DNA from: Martelella limonii
Lineage (GTDB): Bacteria; Pseudomonadota; Alphaproteobacteria; Rhizobiales; Rhizobiaceae
Assembly (NCBI RefSeq): GCF_013344475.1
Contig: NZ_JABUOU010000007.1
Coordinates: 62,001 to 126,000 of the forward strand
Reading direction: 5' to 3'
DNA: 64,000 bases
A model generated the notes under the pieces. It was given only the letters and a program-made list of their open reading frames with translations. It had not been told where the DNA came from and did not search any database. Made by a program: the position numbers and the translations under genes. Positions 20,683 through 55,673 of the stretch are shown piece after piece; within the stretch, counting starts at the first letter, position 1, and the number at the start of each line of letters is the position of its first letter.

Positions 20683-22344
20683 TCAGCTGTTGCGGCGAAC
20701 GGCGATGGCGCGGGCGATGTCGGAAAGCGCTGCCAGCTTTTCCTCGCTCGAACCTTCCGCATAGACCTTTTCCAGCGTCTCGGCATATCCCTGCATTTCC
20801 CGGAGGCATTCCTCGCCCGCGCGGTGAAGCATCGGCGTTTCGTAATTGTCGTCGGCGAAGTCTGCGGCCACGATCCCGAGCAGCAGATAGCCCGCAGCCT
20901 TTTCCGGCTCTGCCTCTGCCTGACGGAATGCCTGATGCGCAGCCTTGCCGAAAGCCTTCACGGCAACCTTGTTTTCAATCACGAGTGCGGGAATATCCTT
21001 GAACACTGAGGCTTCCTCTTGTCTGTTTTCGATCTCTTCGGTCTTATCGAATTCTGCAGTCTTGCCAAGGTAATGACACAGCAATGCGACCGCGCATAGA
21101 AGGTCGCCAATCTCCATGGCTTCATCCGGATTGTGCGAGCCATGATCGTTTCGCACGAAAATCATGCCGCTGGGAATCCCCTTTCCGGCAAAAACCGCCG
21201 CATCATGCCCGCCGCCGGATACCATCAGCGGCGGATCGAGGCCGGCTTCCCTGCCGGCGTGTGCGAGCGCCTGCGCAAGCGGACCCGAGAGCGCGGCAGG
21301 CTCTGTTCTCAGCGGATCGCCCAGTTCGAACCTCACCTTGCGCGCCGCCTCGATGCGGGCGATTTCGCTGAGCAGCAGCGCGTGAAAGCGCTCGAGAACC
21401 TGCACATCGTCGGAGCGCACGTCGAGGCTGAAATGAACCGCATCGGGAATGCGCGACATGGCGTGGGTCGCGCCATTGGTGGACACGACGCCGCTGGTCA
21501 CCACCAGATCGGAGCCCCCATCGAGCGCTTCCTGCCAGGCAGCGTCGAGATGGGCCATCAGGTCCGCCATCGCCAGCACCGGGTCGTGGCGGTAGGCCTT
21601 GGGAACGGCGCCGGAATGGCCGCTTTCGCCAAAGCAGGCGATCGACTTGTAGCGGAAATTCCCGCGAATGCCGGTCACGACCGCCACGGGCAGACCGCGC
21701 TCGACCAGAACCGGACCCTGTTCGATATGAACTTCGAGATATTGCAGGATCTCTTCCGCCCGCATCAGCGGCGTGCCGGCACGCACCTTTTCGATATCGA
21801 TTCCGACTGATTGCATATGCTCGGCAAGCGGACGGCCATCGGCCTTGTGGGCGGCCGCAAGCTCTTCCGGCGTCAGCCGTCCGAGAAGCGCCTTCGAGCC
21901 GATATAGCATGGGCCGAACCAGGCACTCTCCTCGCCGCGCATCGCAATCACCCGCACCGGCTTGACGAACGGGCGGACGAGACCGCGCCGCGCCGCGATC
22001 AGGGAGAGAAGGCCCGCAACCACGCCCGCAAGGCCATCGAAATTGCCGCCCTGGTCAATGCTGTCGGCATGCGAGCCGATCAGGCAGTACTGTTCCGCGT
22101 CTTGATGTTCCGGCAGGCTGATCAGAAGGTTGCAGCCGGCATCATAGGCAGTTGAAAGCCCCTCGGCTTCGGCAACGCCCTTCAGATAGGCGAGCACCTC
22201 GGTTTCCCGTTCGGAAAAGGCCGGTCGGTTGACCCCAGCAGGTGCCGGGCTGAGCCGCGCCACCGCATCGAAAAGCGTCGCGGCCAGCGTTTCGAACTCC
22301 GCGCAAATGATTTCGGGCGCGAGCCGGCCCTGGTGATGTGTCAT
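20683..22344 (-). CDS. M20-family amidohydrolase (carbamoylase/allantoate amidohydrolase-like) with C-terminal extension
   Basis: Zinc-dependent amidase of 553 residues, related to N-carbamoyl-L-amino acid hydrolase, beta-ureidopropionase and allantoate amidohydrolase. Metal and active-site residues are in place: GSHADSI, GGNFDGLAG, RGEESAWFG, LEVHIEQGP, GHSGAVP and SGGGHDA. Family members are about 410-420 residues; here about 130 further residues follow, mostly charged and probably helical, of unknown role. GGAGG precedes the start. It overlaps pyrDB by four bases, so it is the third enzyme of the pyrK-pyrDB-hydrolase operon. A role in hydrolysing an N-carbamoyl amino acid such as carbamoyl-aspartate is inferred. 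Confidence 0.85.
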   Translation of the reverse strand: MTHHQGRLAPEIICAEFETLAATLFDAVARLSPAPAGVNRPAFSERETEVLAYLKGVAEAEGLSTAYDAGCNLLISLPEHQDAEQYCLIGSHADSIDQGGNFDGLAGVVAGLLSLIAARRGLVRPFVKPVRVIAMRGEESAWFGPCYIGSKALLGRLTPEELAAAHKADGRPLAEHMQSVGIDIEKVRAGTPLMRAEEILQYLEVHIEQGPVLVERGLPVAVVTGIRGNFRYKSIACFGESGHSGAVPKAYRHDPVLAMADLMAHLDAAWQEALDGGSDLVVTSGVVSTNGATHAMSRIPDAVHFSLDVRSDDVQVLERFHALLLSEIARIEAARKVRFELGDPLRTEPAALSGPLAQALAHAGREAGLDPPLMVSGGGHDAAVFAGKGIPSGMIFVRNDHGSHNPDEAMEIGDLLCAVALLCHYLGKTAEFDKTEEIENRQEEASVFKDIPALVIENKVAVKAFGKAAHQAFRQAEAEPEKAAGYLLLGIVAADFADDNYETPMLHRAGEECLREMQGYAETLEKVYAEGSSEEKLAALSDIARAIAVRRNS

Positions 22345-23279
22345 GCGATTTCCTCCACGCGGGCGATCTCCCTGTCGCCCGAAATTGCAGCGCCGACGAG
22401 ATCTTCAGACCGCGCAATGCCTTCGGCGTCCAGCGCATCGGCGAGCGCGGTGACAAGCTTCGGCATGATCGACGGATCGATGAAGTTCGCGGTTCCAACC
22501 TGAACGGCCGTGGCGCCGGCGATCAGATACTCCATGATATCCGTCGCGCTCGAAATGCCGCCGCAGCCAATCACCGGGATCGAAACCGCCCGCGCGCACT
22601 GATAGGTCACCCGCAGCGCGATCGGCTTCAGCGCCGGGCCCGACAGGCCGCCCATGATATTGCCGAGCTTGAAGGCTCTGGTGCGCACATCAACGGCCAT
22701 CCCCAGCATGGTGTTGGTGGTGACGAGCGCATCGGCGCCGGCATCTTCGGCGGCGCGCGCAATATCGGCAGGCGCTCCGACATTGGGCGATAGCTTCGCC
22801 CAGAGCGGCAGATGCGTGGCCCGGCGGATCGCCGAAATCACTTTGAAAGTCGCCTCAGCGCTCATGGCGAAGGCCTTGCCGTCATCCTCGATATTGGGGC
22901 AAGAGATATTGGCCTCGATGGCGTCGATATTTGTGGCCGAGAGGCTTTCGGCGAATTCCGCGAAAGCCTCGGCGCTGTCGGCCGAGATGCTGACAACCAC
23001 GGGCGCGCTGTAGGGCGCAAATTTCGGCAGCGTGTTTTCGATCAGATACTGACCGCCCTTGGAGGGGATGCCGATCGAGTTCAGCATGCCGCCCTCAAGC
23101 TCGCAGACGCGCGGCACGGGGTTACCGCTGCGCAGATGCGGCGTCACCGTCTTCAGCACCAGTGCGCCGAGGCAATCGAGGTCGAACACCTCCGCCATTT
23201 CAAGCCCGAAGGTGCCGGATGCCGGCATGATCGGGTTTTTGAGCGTCATGGAGCCGACGCGTGTGGTGAGATCCGCCAT
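22341..23279 (-). CDS. pyrD: Dihydroorotate dehydrogenase class 1B-like catalytic subunit (PyrDB)
   Basis: FMN-containing TIM-barrel flavoenzyme, 312 residues. Class 1B features: N-terminal LTTRVGSMTLKNPIMPASGTFG, the catalytic-base Cys in ANISCPNIEDDG (serine in class 2), LWAKLSPNV and the FMN-phosphate segment IGCGGISSATD. The start at 23279 is preferred because AGGAGG is seven bases upstream; another ATG three bases earlier is too close. It partners PyrK, encoded just upstream. In most proteobacteria de novo pyrimidine synthesis uses the quinone-linked class 2 enzyme, so a 1B pair inside an uptake and amidohydrolase operon suggests catabolic use. Confidence 0.85.
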   Translation of the reverse strand: MADLTTRVGSMTLKNPIMPASGTFGLEMAEVFDLDCLGALVLKTVTPHLRSGNPVPRVCELEGGMLNSIGIPSKGGQYLIENTLPKFAPYSAPVVVSISADSAEAFAEFAESLSATNIDAIEANISCPNIEDDGKAFAMSAEATFKVISAIRRATHLPLWAKLSPNVGAPADIARAAEDAGADALVTTNTMLGMAVDVRTRAFKLGNIMGGLSGPALKPIALRVTYQCARAVSIPVIGCGGISSATDIMEYLIAGATAVQVGTANFIDPSIMPKLVTALADALDAEGIARSEDLVGAAISGDREIARVEEIA

Positions 23280-24109
23280 CATACGACCTCCTGAAGGTTG
23301 AAGACAGGCCCGTCGCGGCAGACCCTCAAGTCTTCGCGCACGCCGTCGCGCTCGAACGGCAAAACGCAGGCCTGGCAGACGCCGACCCCGCAGGCCATGT
23401 GCTGTTCGAGCGCGACCTCGCCAAAGATCTCGTGGCGCGCGCAAAGCGCCTTGAGAAGCCGGGTGATGCGCTTCGAGCCACAGGTATAGACACCGTCAAC
23501 GCCCTCCCCCGTCATCAGGCCTTCCACAACCTCACGCAGGTTTTCAACGCTGGAACTGCCCTCGTCATCGCTGATCGTGATCACCTCCAGACCCCAGGAC
23601 CGGAACAGCGACACCGACATCAGGAATTCGGCAGACCGCGCACTGCAGATCGCCGTCGCCTTGAGGCCACGTTCGCGCAGGGCCAGCGCAAGCGGCGCGA
23701 GCGTTGCAAGGCCGACGCCGCGGGCCACCAGCAGCGGATGGCGCATGGTGTCCGGGATGGTGAAACCGATGCCGAGCGGCCCGACGACGCTGAGCGGATC
23801 GCCTGCAGCAAGCGTTGCGAGAACCCCGGTACCTTCGCCCGCCACCTTGTAGAGAAACGACAGCGTGCCCGCGCCGGCATCGAAGCCGTAAATGCTCATC
23901 GGACGGCGGAAGAACGGTCCGGGCGCGGACGGGCTGCGGCAGAGCAGATGGAAGAACTGGCCCGGCTGGCAATCCAGAATTTCCGCCGGCGCGTCGAGAA
24001 CGAGATGGCGGTACTGGCTGTTCACGGGCGTATTTTCACGCACCGTGCAGATCGCCTCGCGGATCAGGGGAATGGGCTTATGTTCAGCGATTTCAACGAT
24101 CTTAGACAT
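23279..24109 (-). CDS. pyrK: Dihydroorotate dehydrogenase electron-transfer subunit (PyrK)
   Basis: FAD and [2Fe-2S] protein of 276 residues that passes electrons between NAD(H) and PyrDB. The FAD-binding RRPMSIYGF motif (about 67), the nucleotide-binding VARGVGLATLAPLA region and the C-terminal cluster CGVGVCQAC with a fourth Cys in RVCRDGP are all visible. The start at 24109 (MSKIVEIAEHK) has only a weak Shine-Dalgarno sequence. First gene of the pyrK-pyrDB-hydrolase unit. Its promoter carries the same operator as the TRAP promoter. Confidence 0.87.
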   Translation of the reverse strand: MSKIVEIAEHKPIPLIREAICTVRENTPVNSQYRHLVLDAPAEILDCQPGQFFHLLCRSPSAPGPFFRRPMSIYGFDAGAGTLSFLYKVAGEGTGVLATLAAGDPLSVVGPLGIGFTIPDTMRHPLLVARGVGLATLAPLALALRERGLKATAICSARSAEFLMSVSLFRSWGLEVITISDDEGSSSVENLREVVEGLMTGEGVDGVYTCGSKRITRLLKALCARHEIFGEVALEQHMACGVGVCQACVLPFERDGVREDLRVCRDGPVFNLQEVV

Positions 24110-24273
24110 GGCGTGCTCAAGAAACGGGAGACGACACCGCGGGAGGCAGTGTTCAGACAATCTGGTTTTAAGGCTTGGAGATCAGGCGCGGGCGGCTAAT
24201 CAGCGCGGCGCGATCGGGTCGTTCGTGTCAGGTCTGCCATGACAGGCTCCTTTGCTACAGGAGTTAAAAAGAG

Positions 24274-24302
24274 AGGCTATGGCGAAGCGTCTCTTCTGTC
24301 AA
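24274..24302 (-). promoter_or_regulatory. Predicted promoter of the pyrK operon
   Basis: TTGACA at 24302-24297, a 17-base spacer and TAGCCT at 24279-24274. The inverted repeat at 24309-24322 lies seven bases upstream of the -35 box. Confidence 0.55.
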
Positions 24303-24308
24303 CAAAAT

Positions 24309-24322
24309 TCTCATTTTTGAGA
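24309..24322 (-). promoter_or_regulatory. Candidate XRE-regulator operator before pyrK
   Basis: TCTCA(N4)TGAGA inverted repeat. Together with its flank it reads TGAGAATTTT, one base, TTGACA on the minus strand, the same arrangement as in front of dctP, so the same regulator probably binds both. Confidence 0.65.
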
Positions 24323-24365
24323 CCACAGGCACAATATTATACTTATTGCGATCTGCCGCACCCGC

Positions 24366-25652
24366 TCAGCGATAGAGCAGGTTCGGCAGAAACAGCGAGA
24401 TTTCAGGGATATAGGTCACGATCAGCAGCGCCACGAAATTGGCGATGATGAACGGCGTGATGCCGGAAATGATGGTCGTGACCGGTTTCGAAAGCGTAGA
24501 GGCCGCCACGAAAATGTCGAGACCGAAGGGCGGCGTGATCATGCCGAGGCTGATGTTGAGCGTCACGATCATGCCGAGATGGACGGGATCGATGCCGAGC
24601 GCCACGGCCGCCGGGAACAGCGGCGGGATCAGGATCAGCAGCGCCGAATTCGGATCGATGAACATGCCGGCAATCAGGAACAGGAGATTGACCGCGATCA
24701 GGAACATGATCGGCCCGGTATTGTTCTCGGCCAGAAAGGCGGTGATCGCGACCGGGACCTGCGCCAGCGTGATGAAATAGGCAAGCAGGCTGCCGACGGC
24801 GAGCAGGATGAAGATGATCGACGTCGAGATCGCGGCGCGCTCGACCAGGTTGAAGAAACCCGACCAGGACAGCGTGCGGAACACGATGCTTTCGACAAAA
24901 ACGGCGTAAACGACGCTGGCGGCGGCCGCTTCCGTGGGCGTGAAGATCCCGCTATAGATGCCGCCGAGAATGATGACCGGCATGCCGACCGCCCAGCCGG
25001 ACCTGCGGATCGCCTCGAAGCGCTCCGGCCAGGTGGCCCGGGCCCCGCGCGGCAGGCCCTTCCGCCGGCTTTCGATCGCGACCAGAACCGCAAAGGTCAG
25101 CGCCAGCACGATCCCGACGCTCAGCCCCCCGATGAACAGCTTGGCAATCGAGGTGCCGGTCATCCAGCCATAGACGATGAAGGTGATCGAGGGCGGAATG
25201 AGCAGTGCCGTCTCGGCGCTGGAGACGATCAGGCCGAGCGAGAAACGCTCGCTGAAACCGGCCTTGCGCATTTCCGGATAGGCCATGTTGGCCATGGCGG
25301 CGACGGTGGCGGGCGCCGAGCCGGAGACCGAGCCGAAGGCCATTGAACCACCGATCGTGGTATAGCCGAAGCCGCCCCGCAGGTGGCCGAGGAACACCTT
25401 GATGAGCCCCGTCAGGCGCCCGGCAATCTCGCCCTGCCCCATCAGTTCGGCGGCGAGGATGAAGAAGGGAATGGCCAGCAGCGTTTCATGGTCGATGCCG
25501 CCGACGACCTTCTGCACGATCACCGGATCCGGCAATTTTCCGTAGAACACGAGCTTGACCAGCAGCGCCGGCACGGCCAGCACCAGGAACATTTCGAAAC
25601 CCGAGATCAGCAGAGCAAGGGTGAGAACGGCGATGAGAACGAGCCAGATCAT
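24366..25652 (-). CDS. dctM: TRAP transporter large permease DctM
   Basis: Inner-membrane permease of 428 residues with about twelve hydrophobic segments, family TRAP-T large subunit. Typical stretches are FFILAAELMGQGEIAGRLTGL, GSVSGSAPATVAAM and MITPPFGLDIFVAAS. GGAG lies nine bases before the ATG. Third gene of dctP-dctQ-dctM; pyrK follows after a 256-bp gap with its own promoter. Imports an organic anion using the sodium or proton gradient. Confidence 0.93.
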   Translation of the reverse strand: MIWLVLIAVLTLALLISGFEMFLVLAVPALLVKLVFYGKLPDPVIVQKVVGGIDHETLLAIPFFILAAELMGQGEIAGRLTGLIKVFLGHLRGGFGYTTIGGSMAFGSVSGSAPATVAAMANMAYPEMRKAGFSERFSLGLIVSSAETALLIPPSITFIVYGWMTGTSIAKLFIGGLSVGIVLALTFAVLVAIESRRKGLPRGARATWPERFEAIRRSGWAVGMPVIILGGIYSGIFTPTEAAAASVVYAVFVESIVFRTLSWSGFFNLVERAAISTSIIFILLAVGSLLAYFITLAQVPVAITAFLAENNTGPIMFLIAVNLLFLIAGMFIDPNSALLILIPPLFPAAVALGIDPVHLGMIVTLNISLGMITPPFGLDIFVAASTLSKPVTTIISGITPFIIANFVALLIVTYIPEISLFLPNLLYR

Positions 25653-25653
25653 G

Positions 25654-26151
25654 TCAGTGTTCTCCTACCGCGTTTTCAAACCGGTCATACATTCCAAAAC
25701 CGCTCAACAGGAAGCGCAGGGCAAGCAGCCCGAAGCCGACCGTCGGCGCGAGATAAAGCCAGACCGTGGAGATCTCGAGCGTCGGGTTCTTCTGCCCCAT
25801 GGCGAGAACGAAGCTGCAGAGTTTCCAGCCGAGCCAGACAAGGTAAACCGACACGAGGAACCCGGTCAGATCGATGATCCGGCGAAGCGGCAGGCCTGTC
25901 CGTGCCGCGATCCCATCCCGGAAGGAATTGATGCTGACCTGGCGGCCGCGCTCCAGCGCAAGGCCTGCGGTCAGGAAGACCAGATAGATATTGAGAAGCG
26001 AGACCACCTCTTCCAGCCAGCCGAAATCGGACGCTATGGTGCCGCCGAACTCCCGCATCAGCACGCTGGCGAAATAGAAGCAGACCATCAGAATGAAGAT
26101 GGTCACGATCACGATGCGTTCAGCCAGGCGCAGCACGTTGACGGCGGTCAT
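25654..26151 (-). CDS. dctQ: TRAP transporter small permease DctQ
   Basis: Small membrane subunit, 165 residues from the chosen start (MTAVNVLRLAER), four hydrophobic segments. GGAG seven bases before this ATG decides the start over longer in-frame options. The LALERGRQVSINSF segment is typical of the family. Its stop is one base before the dctM start. Confidence 0.88.
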   Translation of the reverse strand: MTAVNVLRLAERIVIVTIFILMVCFYFASVLMREFGGTIASDFGWLEEVVSLLNIYLVFLTAGLALERGRQVSINSFRDGIAARTGLPLRRIIDLTGFLVSVYLVWLGWKLCSFVLAMGQKNPTLEISTVWLYLAPTVGFGLLALRFLLSGFGMYDRFENAVGEH

Positions 26152-26258
26152 GGACAATCTCCAGAGAATGCAGGCCTTGCGGCGGCGGGAGAAGCGATGC
26201 GGGTTCAGAAACGACAGCACCGGCCCAGGGGCCGGTGCTTGCATGGTGATGAAAAGGC

Positions 26259-27278
26259 TTAGTTTCCGGTCACTTTCGCATATTCGGCTTCGTAAAGCTC
26301 GATCAGGTCTTCGCCCTGCTCGCCGGTCTGGGCGATATAGGCAGCCTTGGCGGCCGGATAGGTGATGTCGCGCAGCTCTGCTTTCTGGGCGTCGGTCGCA
26401 ACCGTCACCTCGACGCCGTTTTCCTTGATGGTTTCAAGCGCTGCGTCGACGGCCGCCTTCTTGTGCGCCAAAAGGTCCGGCACAACTTCCTGGAAGGTCT
26501 CCGTAATCGTCGTCTGATACTCTTCCGGCAGGCTCGACCAGAAGGCCGGGTTGAACAGGATCACGTCTTCCATGGCGCCGTGATCGGAGACGAGGAGATA
26601 TTTCTGCACCTCGTAGAACTTCATGTTCTTGATGGTGTCGAGCGGGTTCTCCTCGCCGTCAACCACGCCGGTCTGCAGCGAGGTATAAAGTTCGCCGAAG
26701 GGGATCGGGTTCGCCTGCGCACCAAGCGCCTTGAACTGTTCCACCAGGATCTTGGAATCCATCACGCGGAATTTCTGGCTGGCGAAATCGTCGATCGAGG
26801 CGATCGGCTTGTTGGAGGTAAAGCTCTTGCGGCCGTTCGGCCACAGACCGATGCAGGTCACGCCCTTCTCGTTGAAGCTGTCGCAGAGCGCTTCGCCGAA
26901 AGGACCGCTGGTCAGATCAACCGCTTCGGCATCGTCTGCCGGCAGCAGGTAGGGAATATCGAGGATAGAGATCGCGGGATCGAAACCGCCAAGGAAGGCT
27001 GCGGGCGCTACGGTCGCCTCGAGCGTGCCAAGCTGCACGCCTTCCGTCATTTCGCGCTGGGTGCCGAGCTGGCCGGCCGGGAAGATCTGGAACTCGACCT
27101 CGCCATTGGTGCGCTCGTTGACGAGCTCCGCCACCTTCTCAAGATAGACATTCCGGCTCTGGGCAGCAGATTCCAGATGACCGATCTTGGCAACGTATTC
27201 TGCGGCGTTTACGGAGCTGGCGAAAAGCACTCCGATGAGTGCTGTGGCTGCAAGCGACTGTGCGAAAAGTTTGAGCAT
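26259..27278 (-). CDS. dctP: TRAP transporter solute-binding protein DctP
   Basis: Periplasmic binding protein of 339 residues with a signal peptide (MLKLFAQSL...SSVNAAE). Family features include the basic KFRVMDSKILVEQFKALGA segment, with the conserved Arg that holds the substrate carboxylate, and PIPFGELYTSLQTGVVDGEENP. The substrate is therefore a carboxylate. Genetic linkage to pyrK-pyrDB and an amidohydrolase suggests a pyrimidine- or ureido-carboxylate. Its promoter and operator are clearly visible upstream. Confidence 0.92.
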   Translation of the reverse strand: MLKLFAQSLAATALIGVLFASSVNAAEYVAKIGHLESAAQSRNVYLEKVAELVNERTNGEVEFQIFPAGQLGTQREMTEGVQLGTLEATVAPAAFLGGFDPAISILDIPYLLPADDAEAVDLTSGPFGEALCDSFNEKGVTCIGLWPNGRKSFTSNKPIASIDDFASQKFRVMDSKILVEQFKALGAQANPIPFGELYTSLQTGVVDGEENPLDTIKNMKFYEVQKYLLVSDHGAMEDVILFNPAFWSSLPEEYQTTITETFQEVVPDLLAHKKAAVDAALETIKENGVEVTVATDAQKAELRDITYPAAKAAYIAQTGEQGEDLIELYEAEYAKVTGN

Positions 27279-27354: not shown

Positions 27355-27374
27355 AATTCTCATAATTGAGAATT
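27355..27374. promoter_or_regulatory. Operator palindrome between dctP and the XRE regulator
   Basis: AATTCTCA and TGAGAATT are perfect eight-base arms around TAAT. It sits between divergent dctP and the regulator gene, immediately upstream of the dctP -35 box, and recurs before pyrK. Confidence 0.7.
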
Positions 27375-27437: not shown

Positions 27438-28319
27438 ATGAGCGACACGGAACTTTCAATACGCGAAATCGGTCAGCGCCTCAAAGCCTTTCGCATCGGC
27501 GCTGGCCTCACCCCGGAAGACCTCGCCAATCAGATCGGCATCTCGCGCGCCGCAATCTATCGCTACGAGGCAGGCGCGACGCCGAAAGTCGACACGCTGG
27601 TGATGATCGCCGACCGCCTGGGCGTGACGTTGCCAAACCTCATGGGCATCGGCACGGAATATATCGCCAATGCCGTCGGCTTCTTCGAACGCATGCGCCA
27701 GCTGGAAGAAAAGGTCGAACAGATCCATGTCCTGTTCGGTCCCGTCTCCTACCTGCTGACGACCGACGAATACGACCAGTATCTTCAGCAGGTGCTCGAA
27801 GAAAGCGTTCCGGAAGACGCCCCGTTCAGAGAGAAATCGCTCGAAGAGATCAAGGTGCTGACGGGTATCCTGCGGCAGCGCAAGGAGGCCTTCCGCGAAC
27901 ACCGCCCGTCCATTCTCAGCCTCGTTTCTGCAGCCGAGCTTGAACAGTTCGCCCGCATCGGCCTGATCGGCGCCTACGGACTGAAGAATGTCGATGTGGC
28001 AGAGCGCAAGGATATCGCCCGTCACGAGATCGAAAACATCCTGCGGATGCTGCGCGATCAGCCGATCGGCGTGCAGGTCGGGCTGGTGGTCGATTCGATC
28101 CCGGGATCGAGCTTCCAGATCTTCCGCAACGGCACCCGCCGGACGCTGGCAACCAGCCCGTTCAGGCTCGGCGCACTCCCCAACATCCGCATCGGCGTCG
28201 CCTCGATCTCGGCTGCCCCGGAAGCGGTTTCGCTCCATGCCAGCATGACCGAACGGTTGTGGGCGCGCAGCCTGAAGGGCATGGAAGCGGTCGAATTCCT
28301 GAAGCAGATCATCCTCTAG
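27438..28319 (+). CDS. XRE-family helix-turn-helix regulator with a large C-terminal domain
   Basis: Regulator of 293 residues. The N-terminal XRE domain is clear: IGQRLKAFRIGAGLTPEDLANQIGISRAAIYRYEAGATPKVDTL (about 10-55). About 230 residues follow that I do not recognise; they contain a possible coiled segment near ERMRQLEEKVEQI and may bind a ligand. It is divergent from dctP. The TCTCA(N4)TGAGA sites at 27355 and 24309 are its likely targets. Because both sites sit just upstream of the -35 boxes it could act as an activator. Confidence 0.85.
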   Translation: MSDTELSIREIGQRLKAFRIGAGLTPEDLANQIGISRAAIYRYEAGATPKVDTLVMIADRLGVTLPNLMGIGTEYIANAVGFFERMRQLEEKVEQIHVLFGPVSYLLTTDEYDQYLQQVLEESVPEDAPFREKSLEEIKVLTGILRQRKEAFREHRPSILSLVSAAELEQFARIGLIGAYGLKNVDVAERKDIARHEIENILRMLRDQPIGVQVGLVVDSIPGSSFQIFRNGTRRTLATSPFRLGALPNIRIGVASISAAPEAVSLHASMTERLWARSLKGMEAVEFLKQIIL

Positions 28320-30576: not shown

Positions 30577-32196
30577 TTACTCCACGCGCCCGAACAGTTC
30601 GAGCCTCGGCGTTTCACGGATATGCTGCGGCCATGCGAGCGGAACGTCAAAACGGCTGGTCAGGATCCCCTGGAAATCCGCAAGCCGTTCTGCCGTTTCG
30701 CGCACGCCGCGCGGGCTGATGTCGTTGTTGAGGCAGTAGGCCGCAAGCGCCCCGACGCTTTCGCCGATGTTCCATTCCACAGGATGCAGACGGTAGCAGC
30801 CATTGGTCAGATGGGTGGTGCCAATGTTCTTGCAGGCCGGAAGCATATTGGTGACCCGCTCGGGGATCAGGCTGCCAAGCGGGATCTGGAACGGCCAGTT
30901 GGCGATATCGACATAGTTGCGGGGTGCCGTGGAGGGGTGAAGGTCGATGCGGTAGGAACCGACACCGACCGAATCCGCAAACTGCTCGGCGCCCGTCAGG
31001 CCCTTGCGGGCATCGATGCCGACATGGTTTTCCGTGACCGTGAACAGCGCCTTGATCCGGCGGCTTTCGCGGATATAGGGCGCGATCGTGAGCCCATCGA
31101 GCGTACCCATCACCGCGCCCGCAGGCTTCAGACCTTGATAGCCATAGCCACCGTCATGGCGCGGCGCCTCGGTCTGCATCCAGTAAAGCATCGACAGCGA
31201 CAATTGCCGCGCGCCCTCCAGATGCCGCTCTGCTTCTTCTGCCGGAACGCCGACAAGCGGCCCGCCGCAATAATCGATCTGCGGCCAGTTGACGAGGCAG
31301 ACGTCAGAGGCATAGCGGTTGCCGACATGGTGCCGGCGGTAGAAGATCCGGCGGTAGTGCCAGTTATCGGCGGCAAATTTCTGATCGCTGTCGCCGGCAA
31401 AGAGCGGGCGGTTGTCCGGTTCCAGCGTCACCGGGTTGGGGCCGACGAAGGACAGCTGCCGATCAGGCCAGAAGTCGAGCTTGAAATCGCGCCAGATGTC
31501 GTAGTCGCGCGGTCGCTCGATCGTATGGTCTTCATCCGGATGATAGCTCATCGCGAAGCACCAGCTGACCGCCTGCTGGTCAAGCGGGTTGGCGCCCCCC
31601 GCCAGCGCGGCAGGCTCTCCCGTCTCGGCCTGGCTTTCCGCGCCGATGACATGCTCGACATTGCCGAGTTCCAGCAGATCGCCAAGCTCCGTCGCGTCGA
31701 TGAAATAGCGGCCCGTCAGGACAACATCGCCATATTCGAAGGATCGCACTGTGACCGAGGTAAAGCGGTCGCCATCGGTTTCGGCGGCAATTGGCTTTGC
31801 CGACATCAGGATGGTGAGCCGGTCGGTCGCAAACCACGGAGCGAGGAGCGCGTCGATGGCAGCAACGCCCGCGCGCGGCTCTGCACAGATCGGCGAAACA
31901 TTGCCGCTTCCCGGATTGAGGTTGTCGTCGGCGCGCGCCTCGTCTGTCAGCGGATAATTGCGGCGGTAATAATCGCGGATTTCGGCCCGCAGCTGGCGGT
32001 AGCTTGCGGTTGATCCGTCGCTTTCGATCCACGGGTTTTCGTCCGGCGGAACGGCCTGCGTCGTCAACTGGCCACCCAGCCACTTGAATTCCTCTGTCAG
32101 GATGACGCTGCGCCCGAGCTTGAGGGCCGCAAGGGCCGCAGCAACGCCGCCGAGACCGCCACCGATGATGACGATATCGCTGGTCAGTTCTTTCAT
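30577..32196 (-). CDS. FAD-dependent oxidoreductase of the FAD_oxidored type
   Basis: Flavoprotein of 539 residues. The N-terminal dinucleotide motif is DIVIIGGGLGGVAAALAALK (about 7-26), followed by EEFKWLGGQLTTQ and, in the middle, FIDATELGDLLELG; NGCYRLHPVEWNIGESVGALAAYCL closes the FAD site near the C-terminus. No signal peptide. AAAGGAT before the ATG overlaps the stop of the permease gene, so it is translated as part of the transporter operon. The enzyme probably oxidises the imported sugar or a derivative; its substrate is unknown. Confidence 0.83.
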   Translation of the reverse strand: MKELTSDIVIIGGGLGGVAAALAALKLGRSVILTEEFKWLGGQLTTQAVPPDENPWIESDGSTASYRQLRAEIRDYYRRNYPLTDEARADDNLNPGSGNVSPICAEPRAGVAAIDALLAPWFATDRLTILMSAKPIAAETDGDRFTSVTVRSFEYGDVVLTGRYFIDATELGDLLELGNVEHVIGAESQAETGEPAALAGGANPLDQQAVSWCFAMSYHPDEDHTIERPRDYDIWRDFKLDFWPDRQLSFVGPNPVTLEPDNRPLFAGDSDQKFAADNWHYRRIFYRRHHVGNRYASDVCLVNWPQIDYCGGPLVGVPAEEAERHLEGARQLSLSMLYWMQTEAPRHDGGYGYQGLKPAGAVMGTLDGLTIAPYIRESRRIKALFTVTENHVGIDARKGLTGAEQFADSVGVGSYRIDLHPSTAPRNYVDIANWPFQIPLGSLIPERVTNMLPACKNIGTTHLTNGCYRLHPVEWNIGESVGALAAYCLNNDISPRGVRETAERLADFQGILTSRFDVPLAWPQHIRETPRLELFGRVE

Positions 32197-54305: not shown

Positions 54306-55673
54306 ATGGACCTGCTACTGCGCGGAACCGTCATCACCCCGCTCGCCGCCATCGAGGGCGGCTGGATCGCCGTTCGTGACGGCAAGATCGCGGCGATCGG
54401 CGACAGCACGACGACCCCGCCGGAGGCGGCGGAAACCGTCGACTACGGTGACCGGCTGATCATGCCCGGCGTAATCGACGGCCAGACCCATGCCACCAGC
54501 GCCAAGGGCCTTGAGGGCATCGGCGATACCACCCGCTCGGCGATTGCCGGCGGCGTCACCACGCTGGTCGACATGCCGTTCGACAACCCAACCCCTCTGG
54601 ACCGCCCCGAACGGCTCAAGGCCAAGGTCGACGCGATCGCCACCCACAGCCATGCCGATGTCGCGCTTTATGGAACGATTACCGCCGAGACCGGCACGGA
54701 TCAGATCGATGCGCTGATCGACGGCGGCGTCGTTGCCTTCAAGATCTCCTCGTTCGAAAGCTCGCCGACGCGCTTTCCCCGCATCGATGCCGCGCTGATG
54801 CTCGACATCATGGAAAAGCTTGCGCCCACCAATCTTCCCATCGGCCTTCACAACGAGGATCAGGAGATCGTGCTGGAGCGGATGGCGCGCGCCCGCGCTG
54901 CCGGCGAAAACGGCATCAACGCCCACTCCACCGCCCGGCCCGTGGCGGCCGAGCTTGCAGCAACCGCCCAGTTCCTGGCGCTCGCGCAGGCAACCGGGGC
55001 GCATGCCCATCCGGTGCATCTGTCGAGCGGCGACGGGTTCTCGCAGGTCGGCGCCTTTGCCGATCTCGGCGTGCGCGCGACGGGGGAAACCTGCGTGCAC
55101 TATCTCTGGTTCGATGCCGCCCGCGATGGCGAAAGGCTCGGCCCGCGCATGAAGGTCAACCCGCCGATCCGCCCCGGCGAGGTCGACAATCTCTGGGATG
55201 CGATCGTCGACGGGCTTGTCGCCTTCACCTCGTCGGACCATTCGAGCTGGCCGATCGACGGCAAGCTGACGGACTCGATCTTCGACGCCGGCGCCGGCGT
55301 GCCGGGGCTTGAAACCCTGCTGCCCGCCTTCTTCACCGCCGCGGAAGCGCGCGGGCTCGATGCCGCCATGCTCGCCGCCGAGCAGCTCTCGGAGCGTCCG
55401 GCCACCTTCTTCGGCCTTTCCGACCGCAAGGGCTCGATCCGGGTCGGCATGGATGCGGATTTCGCCATTCTGGAACAAGGCGCCTTCATCTGGGATGAGG
55501 CCAAGGCCCATGACGGGCTGAACTGGTCGCCCTTCCATGGCGACACCTTCACGGTCAAGGTCGCGGCCACGTATCTGCGCGGCGAACGGGGCTTTGACGG
55601 CAACACCATCACCGGCCGGCAGGGCTCGGGGCGCTATCTCGCCCGCGGCGCCGATTGCTGGTTCGGCAACTGA
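54306..55673 (+). CDS. Cyclic amidohydrolase (dihydroorotase/allantoinase/hydantoinase family)
   Basis: Metal-dependent ring-opening amidohydrolase, 455 residues. Barrel motifs: MPGVIDGQTHATS (about 53), bridging-Lys candidate AFKISSFES (about 145), GLHNEDQE, HPVHLSSGDG and the final Asp in SSDHSSW. In the family the first motif is DxHxH; here the first His is a Gln (codon CAG), so one metal ligand is changed. Other ligands look intact. It probably opens a hydantoin or related ring. Close operon with the racemase; DHDPS-like gene 11 bp downstream. Confidence 0.85.
   Translation: MDLLLRGTVITPLAAIEGGWIAVRDGKIAAIGDSTTTPPEAAETVDYGDRLIMPGVIDGQTHATSAKGLEGIGDTTRSAIAGGVTTLVDMPFDNPTPLDRPERLKAKVDAIATHSHADVALYGTITAETGTDQIDALIDGGVVAFKISSFESSPTRFPRIDAALMLDIMEKLAPTNLPIGLHNEDQEIVLERMARARAAGENGINAHSTARPVAAELAATAQFLALAQATGAHAHPVHLSSGDGFSQVGAFADLGVRATGETCVHYLWFDAARDGERLGPRMKVNPPIRPGEVDNLWDAIVDGLVAFTSSDHSSWPIDGKLTDSIFDAGAGVPGLETLLPAFFTAAEARGLDAAMLAAEQLSERPATFFGLSDRKGSIRVGMDADFAILEQGAFIWDEAKAHDGLNWSPFHGDTFTVKVAATYLRGERGFDGNTITGRQGSGRYLARGADCWFGN

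Follow-up and report, generated by a model that had tools for sequence, protein, structure and literature searches.

The window analysed here, a stretch of 64,000 nucleotides from Martelella limonii (contig NZ_JABUOU010000007.1, positions 62,001 to 126,000), carries on its minus strand an operon that combines a tripartite ATP-independent periplasmic (TRAP) importer, a PyrK-PyrD pair and an M20 hydrolase, and our subject is the likely function of this operon. Its genes run in the order dctP-dctQ-dctM and then pyrK-pyrD-M20 hydrolase, the latter with overlapping ends, and the gene for an XRE-type regulator (Pfam HTH_3; 27438..28319, plus strand) diverges from them. The TRAP solute-binding protein DctP, a predicted orotate binder, is encoded at 26259..27278, the small permease DctQ at 25654..26244 (Pfam PF04290, 80 bits; no NCBIfam match) and the large permease DctM at 24366..25652 (TIGR00786, 383 bits, cut-off 268). 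The electron-transfer subunit PyrK occupies 23279..24109; its open reading frame opens with TTG at 24160, and the in-frame ATG at 24109, which is the likelier start, puts 256 bases between dctM and pyrK. PyrDB lies at 22341..23288 and the hydrolase at 20683..22344, such that the two share the four bases 22344-22341, as the initial annotation had it; indeed, all of these genes lie where it had placed them, on the minus strand, and the names it gave them are borne out by the family scores. Two copies of an operator are present, of which copy 1 (27355..27374), the inverted repeat AATTCTCA-TAAT-TGAGAATT with perfect 8+8 arms, stands between dctP and the regulator, and copy 2 (24306..24325), AATTCTCATTTTTGAGACCA, stands between dctM and pyrK, upstream of the latter. 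Consequently, the earlier description of a TRAP importer adjoining the PyrK-PyrD genes under the same operator stands as regards the importer, and has to be replaced by two operator copies as regards a single shared site.

To compare this operon with its relatives, we used 46 loci picked by their PyrD, the window included, with near-copies and outgroups (L043 and L046) removed. Namely, L048, L049 and L060 (same contigs as L028, L045 and L036) and L102 and L103 (same cluster as L099) were dropped throughout, and, for an identical PyrD, L063 was dropped from the neighbourhood counts and L108 from the operator counts. Both of these are inside the 28 DctP, 43 PyrD and 47 M20 alignment rows, L111-L113 are outside the 28 DctP and 43 PyrD rows, and L109 and L117, the latter with a PyrD split in two pieces, were left out of the tree. 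PyrK and the M20 hydrolase accompany PyrD in all 46 loci and a homologue of the XRE regulator in 39. What is more, an importer is found in 45 of the 46 (TRAP in 30, five of them with an ABC importer as well; ABC without TRAP in 10; MFS in 5), with no importer over threshold in the remaining one, L117. A dihydroorotase is encoded in 20 of the loci, PyrE in 24 and either of them in 29, and the one cluster dihydroorotase and the one cluster orotate phosphoribosyltransferase (OPRT) that were scanned score 439 bits (cut-off 293) and 393 bits (cut-off 245), respectively. In particular, the complete enzyme set stands in one row in Variovorax (L100: porin-MFS-PyrK-PyrD-M20-PyrC-XRE-PyrE-small protein) and in genome G311, from another family of the same class as the host (XRE-DctPQM-PyrK-PyrD-M20-PyrC-PyrE). 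On a Pseudomonas putida plasmid (L104), a dihydroorotase of a different type takes the same slot (453 aa; PRK09236, 701 bits, cut-off 535). The cluster on this plasmid is adjoined by genes for a malic enzyme-like protein and a methyl-accepting chemotaxis protein (L104:9186-14078), the latter possibly serving chemotaxis to orotate.

The PyrD of the window passes the cut-offs of both PRK07259 (339 bits, cut-off 269) and pyrD_sub1 (290 bits, cut-off 270), and PyrK carries the DHODB_Fe-S_bind domain (52.5 bits, cut-off 23.9), which is the sole match of that [2Fe-2S] domain in the genome, so that the class 1B PyrK-PyrDB pair named in the initial annotation is confirmed. The residues Lys48, Asn72, Asn132, Cys135, Asn137, Lys170, Asn197 and Thr198 are kept in all 43 aligned cluster PyrDs; they align with what we take to be the orotate site of Lactococcus lactis PyrDB, Cys135 being presumably the catalytic cysteine. 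In other words, the catalytic cysteine and the orotate ligands expected of class 1B are present in every row. At the same time, the loop that reads NAIGLQN in 1EP1 and L043 reads N[SA]IGIPS in 43/43 cluster PyrDs, and in a maximum-likelihood tree of 53 rows the 46 cluster PyrDs fall on one side of a branch with support 97/96, with five class 1B PyrDs outside the clade, namely those of Texcoconibacillus (L043), Listeria (L114), Parabacteroides (L115), Bacillus (L116) and Lactococcus (1EP1). Since this clade covers alpha-, beta- and gammaproteobacteria, its distribution fits acquisition by horizontal transfer. The window protein may therefore be described as a class 1B-type dihydroorotate dehydrogenase of a separate clade, and it is our proposal that it acts as an orotate reductase. 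If so, the annotation "dihydroorotate dehydrogenase, pyrimidine biosynthesis" would need correcting across the whole clade.

The importer gives an indication of the substrate. Among 78 PDB sequences, 4nn3 matches the window DctP with 447 bits and the next chain with 179; the identity is 61% to 4NN3 and 35% to 4P47, and over the 28 aligned cluster DctPs it is 57-66% and 31-37%, respectively. According to excerpts of the study PMC11668362, 4NN3, a TRAP binding protein from Maridesulfovibrio salexigens, was crystallised with orotic acid and has a lysine at 4P47 position 152 where others carry arginine; excerpts of a review name orotic acid as one of the recently identified ligands of TRAP proteins (PMC5812351). 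This lysine (the signature residue Lys151) is found in 28/28 cluster DctPs; Arg173, Phe at 196 and Asn213 are equally invariant, and the window DctP thus has all four residues in common with 4NN3. Position 76 is occupied by Gln in 23 cluster DctPs and by Ala in the other 5, and the sequence alignment gives Gln in 4NN3 too; the excerpts of PMC11668362 name an Asn at position 76 of 4NN3, and immediately before that position 4NN3 has Asn and the window DctP has Thr. Both overall similarity and binding-site residues thus put the window protein in the 4NN3 group. A single-sequence structure model of DctP reached a pLDDT of 35 and was set aside. That 61% of the residues agree with those of a binding protein solved with orotic acid in the crystal speaks for uptake of orotate, and we predict that the window DctP binds it. 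Such proteins are rare, with 2 of 385 genomes of the class having a match at 1e-90, the host counted.

The hydrolase has 553 residues, scores 254 bits against the hydantoinase/carbamoylase family TIGR01879 (cut-off 204), which bears out its earlier description as an M20 carbamoylase-like hydrolase, and falls short of AllC (188 bits, cut-off 598). His92, Asp103, Glu138, Glu139, His206 and His404 are common to this protein, AllC, the L-N-carbamoylase and the other M20 hydrolase of the host, and we take these His, Asp and Glu columns to be metal ligands. An AlphaFold model built from 49 alignment rows (pLDDT 89) finds its best solved matches in the Geobacillus L-N-carbamoylase 3n5f (TMt 0.80, 30% identity) and Escherichia coli AllC 1z2l (TMt 0.83, 28% identity). 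Consequently, fold and metal-motif columns are those of AllC and the L-N-carbamoylase; unlike these two, and unlike the M20 enzyme near PreTA discussed below, the cluster hydrolases have private residues, namely Arg136, Arg227 and Asn229 in 47/47 and Arg298 in 46/47 rows, and a small protein fused or nearby. Arg298 adjoins the column of AllC Asn277, which is replaced by Ser in the window hydrolase, and Asn229 aligns with AllC Gln215, both AllC residues being, on our assumption, substrate contacts. The additional positive charges would suit a dicarboxylate substrate, for instance carbamoyl-aspartate, and an N-carbamoyl-aspartate amidohydrolase is what we propose this enzyme to be.

The last 107 residues of the hydrolase (20686..21006, minus strand) form a separate domain, all helical in the model, of which the initial annotation says nothing. 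In most relatives, this domain is a free-standing small protein; it is found in 39 of the 46 loci at E < 1e-4 and is fused to the M20 hydrolase in 9 of the 46. A profile built from 8 members of the 46 loci found it in precisely those 23 of 297 sampled family genomes that have the cluster PyrD (E <= 1e-60, host included) and nowhere among the remaining 274; the profile stems partly from the copies of those 23 genomes, and the absences are not by construction. Scanning 24 members against Pfam and NCBIfam assigned no family; the matches, each limited to a single member (best: Antiterm, E 9.6e-5), we took as chance. Among solved structures, two chains of CagY matched over the whole chain (E 7.6e-8 and 1.5e-7) without any individual stretch reaching the threshold, and two designed helical proteins matched at E 0.12 and 0.36; these were likewise dismissed as chance matches between helical sequences. 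The fusion and the co-occurrence suggest that the accessory domain aids the hydrolase.

The operator motif, TCTCA-N4-TGAGA, has 44 exact matches in the 907,335 bases of the 46 loci. Operon gaps, which make up 4% of the bases, contain 42 of these matches, and 29 permuted half-sites gave a mean of 0.4 matches with none in gaps. Of the two matches outside gaps, the one in L112 lies 16 bases upstream of an ABC ATPase frame, and the one in L065 lies inside the 5' end of an ABC ATPase stop-to-stop frame, probably before the start. A search of the host genome for TTCTCA-N4-TGAGA gave just the two sites of the operon, against 0 for the reversed control. With an exact match in 32 of the 46 loci, the site marks most alphaproteobacterial promoters of the cluster.

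Is the operon perhaps just the host's route to pyrimidines? The genome (4.54 Mb, 40 contigs) contains three DHO_dh matches, namely a class 2 quinone-type PyrD on contig C29 (358 aa, 384 bits against pyrD_sub2), PreA beside PreT on C22, and the operon PyrD. The second pyrD, whose absence the initial annotation would have counted against a catabolic role, is therefore there, and since a class 2 PyrD is over the cut-off in all 23 family genomes that have the cluster PyrD, the latter is not needed for synthesis, and we reject a housekeeping role for it. PyrC is on C29 and PyrE on C22, the window being part of C38, so the earlier statement that no other pyr biosynthetic gene is near holds for the three genes looked for, PyrC, PyrE and the class 2 PyrD. 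The cluster PyrD itself is sparsely distributed, being found in 0 of 4 other sampled members of the genus and in 1 of 398 genomes of the phylum at 1e-75, host counted. Downstream of PreTA there follow an M20 hydrolase (694 bits against PRK09290.1-3; 28% identical to that of the cluster) and a dihydropyrimidinase (606 bits, cut-off 393), and uracil breakdown therefore has a locus of its own.

We consider it very likely that the operon serves the catabolism of orotate under its own regulator, from import to breakdown into aspartate and ammonia. The TRAP importer would take up orotate, as its crystallised relative suggests, and PyrK-PyrD, judging from its site residues, would reduce it to dihydroorotate with NADH. 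A dihydroorotase, here probably PyrC on C29, would open the ring to give N-carbamoyl-L-aspartate, which the M20 hydrolase, aided by its fused accessory domain, would split into aspartate, CO2 and ammonia. The divergent XRE protein would control both promoters through TCTCA-N4-TGAGA and, in loci with PyrE, some of the orotate may also be salvaged to UMP. A candidate gene thus exists for each step, with PyrKD and M20 in the window and PyrC on C29. The initial annotation had proposed import and reductive catabolism of orotate or a similar compound, and this gains support from the identity of DctP to 4NN3, the dihydroorotase and PyrE genes in relatives' clusters, and the separate uracil locus. It had also offered the cyclic amidohydrolase at 54306 as a possible dihydroorotase, which did not hold, as this protein is closer to ErtD and there is no operator there.

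Several observations weigh against this interpretation. PyrK reaches none of the four curated PyrK cut-offs (125 bits at best, with a cut-off of 314) and is therefore a divergent PyrK, 14 of the 46 loci, including four beta- and gammaproteobacterial ones (L099, L100, L104 and L107), have no exact operator match, and the window operon contains neither PyrC nor PyrE. What is more, in 7 of the 23 genomes (G033, G043, G055, G064, G098, G172 and G251) the cluster itself holds the sole full match to pyrC_dimer, the type searched for, and for G043, G098 and G172 it holds the single PyrE match as well, so that adjacency there can also mean a cluster beside housekeeping genes. Strong PyrE matches both in the cluster and elsewhere are found in seven genomes (G001, G033, G040, G064, G109, G136 and G232), and G109 also has a second PyrC. 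In other words, the link of the cluster to orotate metabolism is firm, and PyrC and PyrE are not dedicated to it everywhere.

These sole copies, together with the presence of PyrE in 24 and of a dihydroorotase in 20 of the 46 loci, are what speaks for scavenging in the synthetic direction, in which imported dihydroorotate, carbamoyl-aspartate or orotate would feed UMP synthesis via PyrD and PyrE, the more so as TRAP proteins bind carboxylates in general. However, the carbamoylase-family M20 enzyme of all 46 loci would destroy carbamoyl-aspartate, a class 2 PyrD is already present in all 23 genomes, the nearest solved DctP holds orotate, and neither pyrC nor pyrE is in the window operon; we find it improbable. 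The altered PyrD loop, N[SA]IGIPS instead of the biosynthetic NAIGLQN in 43/43 rows, and the many ureido substrates of the hydrolase family would suit another carboxylated cyclic ureide as true substrate, be it a substituted dihydropyrimidine or a hydantoin. Against this stand the orotate in the 4NN3 crystal and the scanned dihydroorotase and OPRT, both over their cut-offs, and we regard such a substrate as quite improbable.

Reductive degradation of uracil or thymine, with PyrKD as dihydropyrimidine dehydrogenase and M20 as beta-ureidopropionase, draws on the fact that beta-alanine synthases and N-carbamoyl-beta-alanine amidohydrolases are among the M20 enzymes. That said, the host has PreT-PreA elsewhere with its own M20 hydrolase and dihydropyrimidinase, and the window PyrD keeps the dihydroorotate dehydrogenase residues, scores 119 bits against PreA (cut-off 335) and is without the PreA loop. 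Moreover, the PyrE of the relatives' clusters uses orotate, and the relative of DctP binds it. On the separate PreTA locus and the PyrD residues we reject this pathway, and we give it hardly any probability.

Returning to orotate catabolism, a variant of the cluster has an ABC importer and a nucleoside phosphorylase together, in 15 loci, with phosphopentomutase (DeoB) in 9 of the 15. The one ABC binding protein scanned is of the NMT1/THI5 type; of the phosphorylases, two were scanned, and they reach 147 and 150 bits with the model for uridine phosphorylase (cut-off 280). Compared with an E. coli sequence, all 15 phosphorylases keep a Gln-x-Arg motif and carry a His of their own; examples of this uridine-phosphorylase-like enzyme are at L101:5371-6135 and L112:15749-16471, with 13 further loci. 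The operator precedes the ABC genes in many of these loci, and the module is therefore probably co-regulated with the cluster. Our guess is that the phosphorylase acts on orotidine. More tentatively still, one may picture both that the M20 hydrolase works as a two-part carbamoyl-aspartate amidohydrolase together with the helical protein of 107 residues (which would supply a gene for the long-known "ureidosuccinase" activity), with the latter as an obligate subunit or as a scaffold, and that ABC importer, uridine-phosphorylase-like enzyme and DeoB make up an orotidine route, with uptake, phosphorolysis to orotate and ribose-1-phosphate, and the same degradation thereafter; this combined picture is possible and rather less likely than its negation.

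The cluster is also found on plasmids. At E <= 1e-60, the PyrD has matches in 80 plasmid records, of which 53 are from Klebsiella and some hold biosynthetic homologues (Listeria, Bacillus, Bacteroidales). In three Klebsiella records the order is PyrK-PyrD-M20-PyrC-XRE-small protein with a divergent MFS gene, beside lacY-lacZ, and the stretch from PyrK to lacY is covered to at least 80% in at least 51 records, with a query that holds a common IS1-like stretch. A megablast search of an E. coli collection gave no near match of the Klebsiella version. On a Klebsiella plasmid from milk, the cluster lies beside lacY-lacZ at L099:11160-19422, with PyrK annotated as a hypothetical protein. Milk is rich in orotate, and milk or mastitis milk is the source of 8 of the 40 Klebsiella records listed, many others being clinical and no background rate being available. 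An orotate cluster beside lactose genes, in records some of which come from milk, is an ecological idea worth keeping in mind.

Elsewhere in the window, the amidohydrolase at 54306-55673 (plus strand) is nearest to ErtD, a hydantoin-5-propionate amidohydrolase (462 bits, cut-off 600), and adjoins a DapA-like gene, an SDR gene and an ABC transporter gene, probably as a separate ureide/hydantoin locus. At 30577-32196 (minus strand), ABC transporter genes flank the gene for a protein resembling FAD-dependent oxidoreductases, for which no NCBIfam model exceeded its cut-off.

How does the cluster relate to known systems? With biosynthetic class 1B PyrK-PyrDB it shares the two-subunit build, the catalytic cysteine and the orotate residues, and it differs in that its PyrD forms a separate clade with its own loop and is found beside an M20 hydrolase instead of carAB-pyrF-pyrE. 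Excerpts of PMC4016543 place two dehydrogenase families, X1 and X2, beside PreA/PydA and with other neighbours than those of the cluster, namely hyuA, carbamoyltransferase and XDHase as well as pyruvate-ferredoxin oxidoreductase. These families resemble the cluster PyrD as members of the dihydroorotate/dihydropyrimidine dehydrogenase superfamily near ureide genes, and, going by those excerpts, their descriptions set them apart from the cluster PyrD, which passes the class 1B cut-off. Our literature search, with most subscription journals outside its coverage, found no gene cluster for orotate breakdown, and the present one offers a concrete set to test, consisting of importer, reductase, ring opener, amidohydrolase, regulator, operator and a nameless protein family. 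The breakdown of orotate itself is a classical pathway, worked out biochemically in the 1950s, and in the reductive orotate fermentation of Clostridium (Zymobacterium) oroticum it proceeds through orotate reductase, dihydroorotase and ureidosuccinase. The proposed steps of the cluster are the same, including an NADH-linked dehydrogenase, the comparison being one of steps; unlike in C. oroticum, they would be carried out in Proteobacteria and from one gene cluster, with its importer, regulator, M20 hydrolase and uncatalogued accessory protein.

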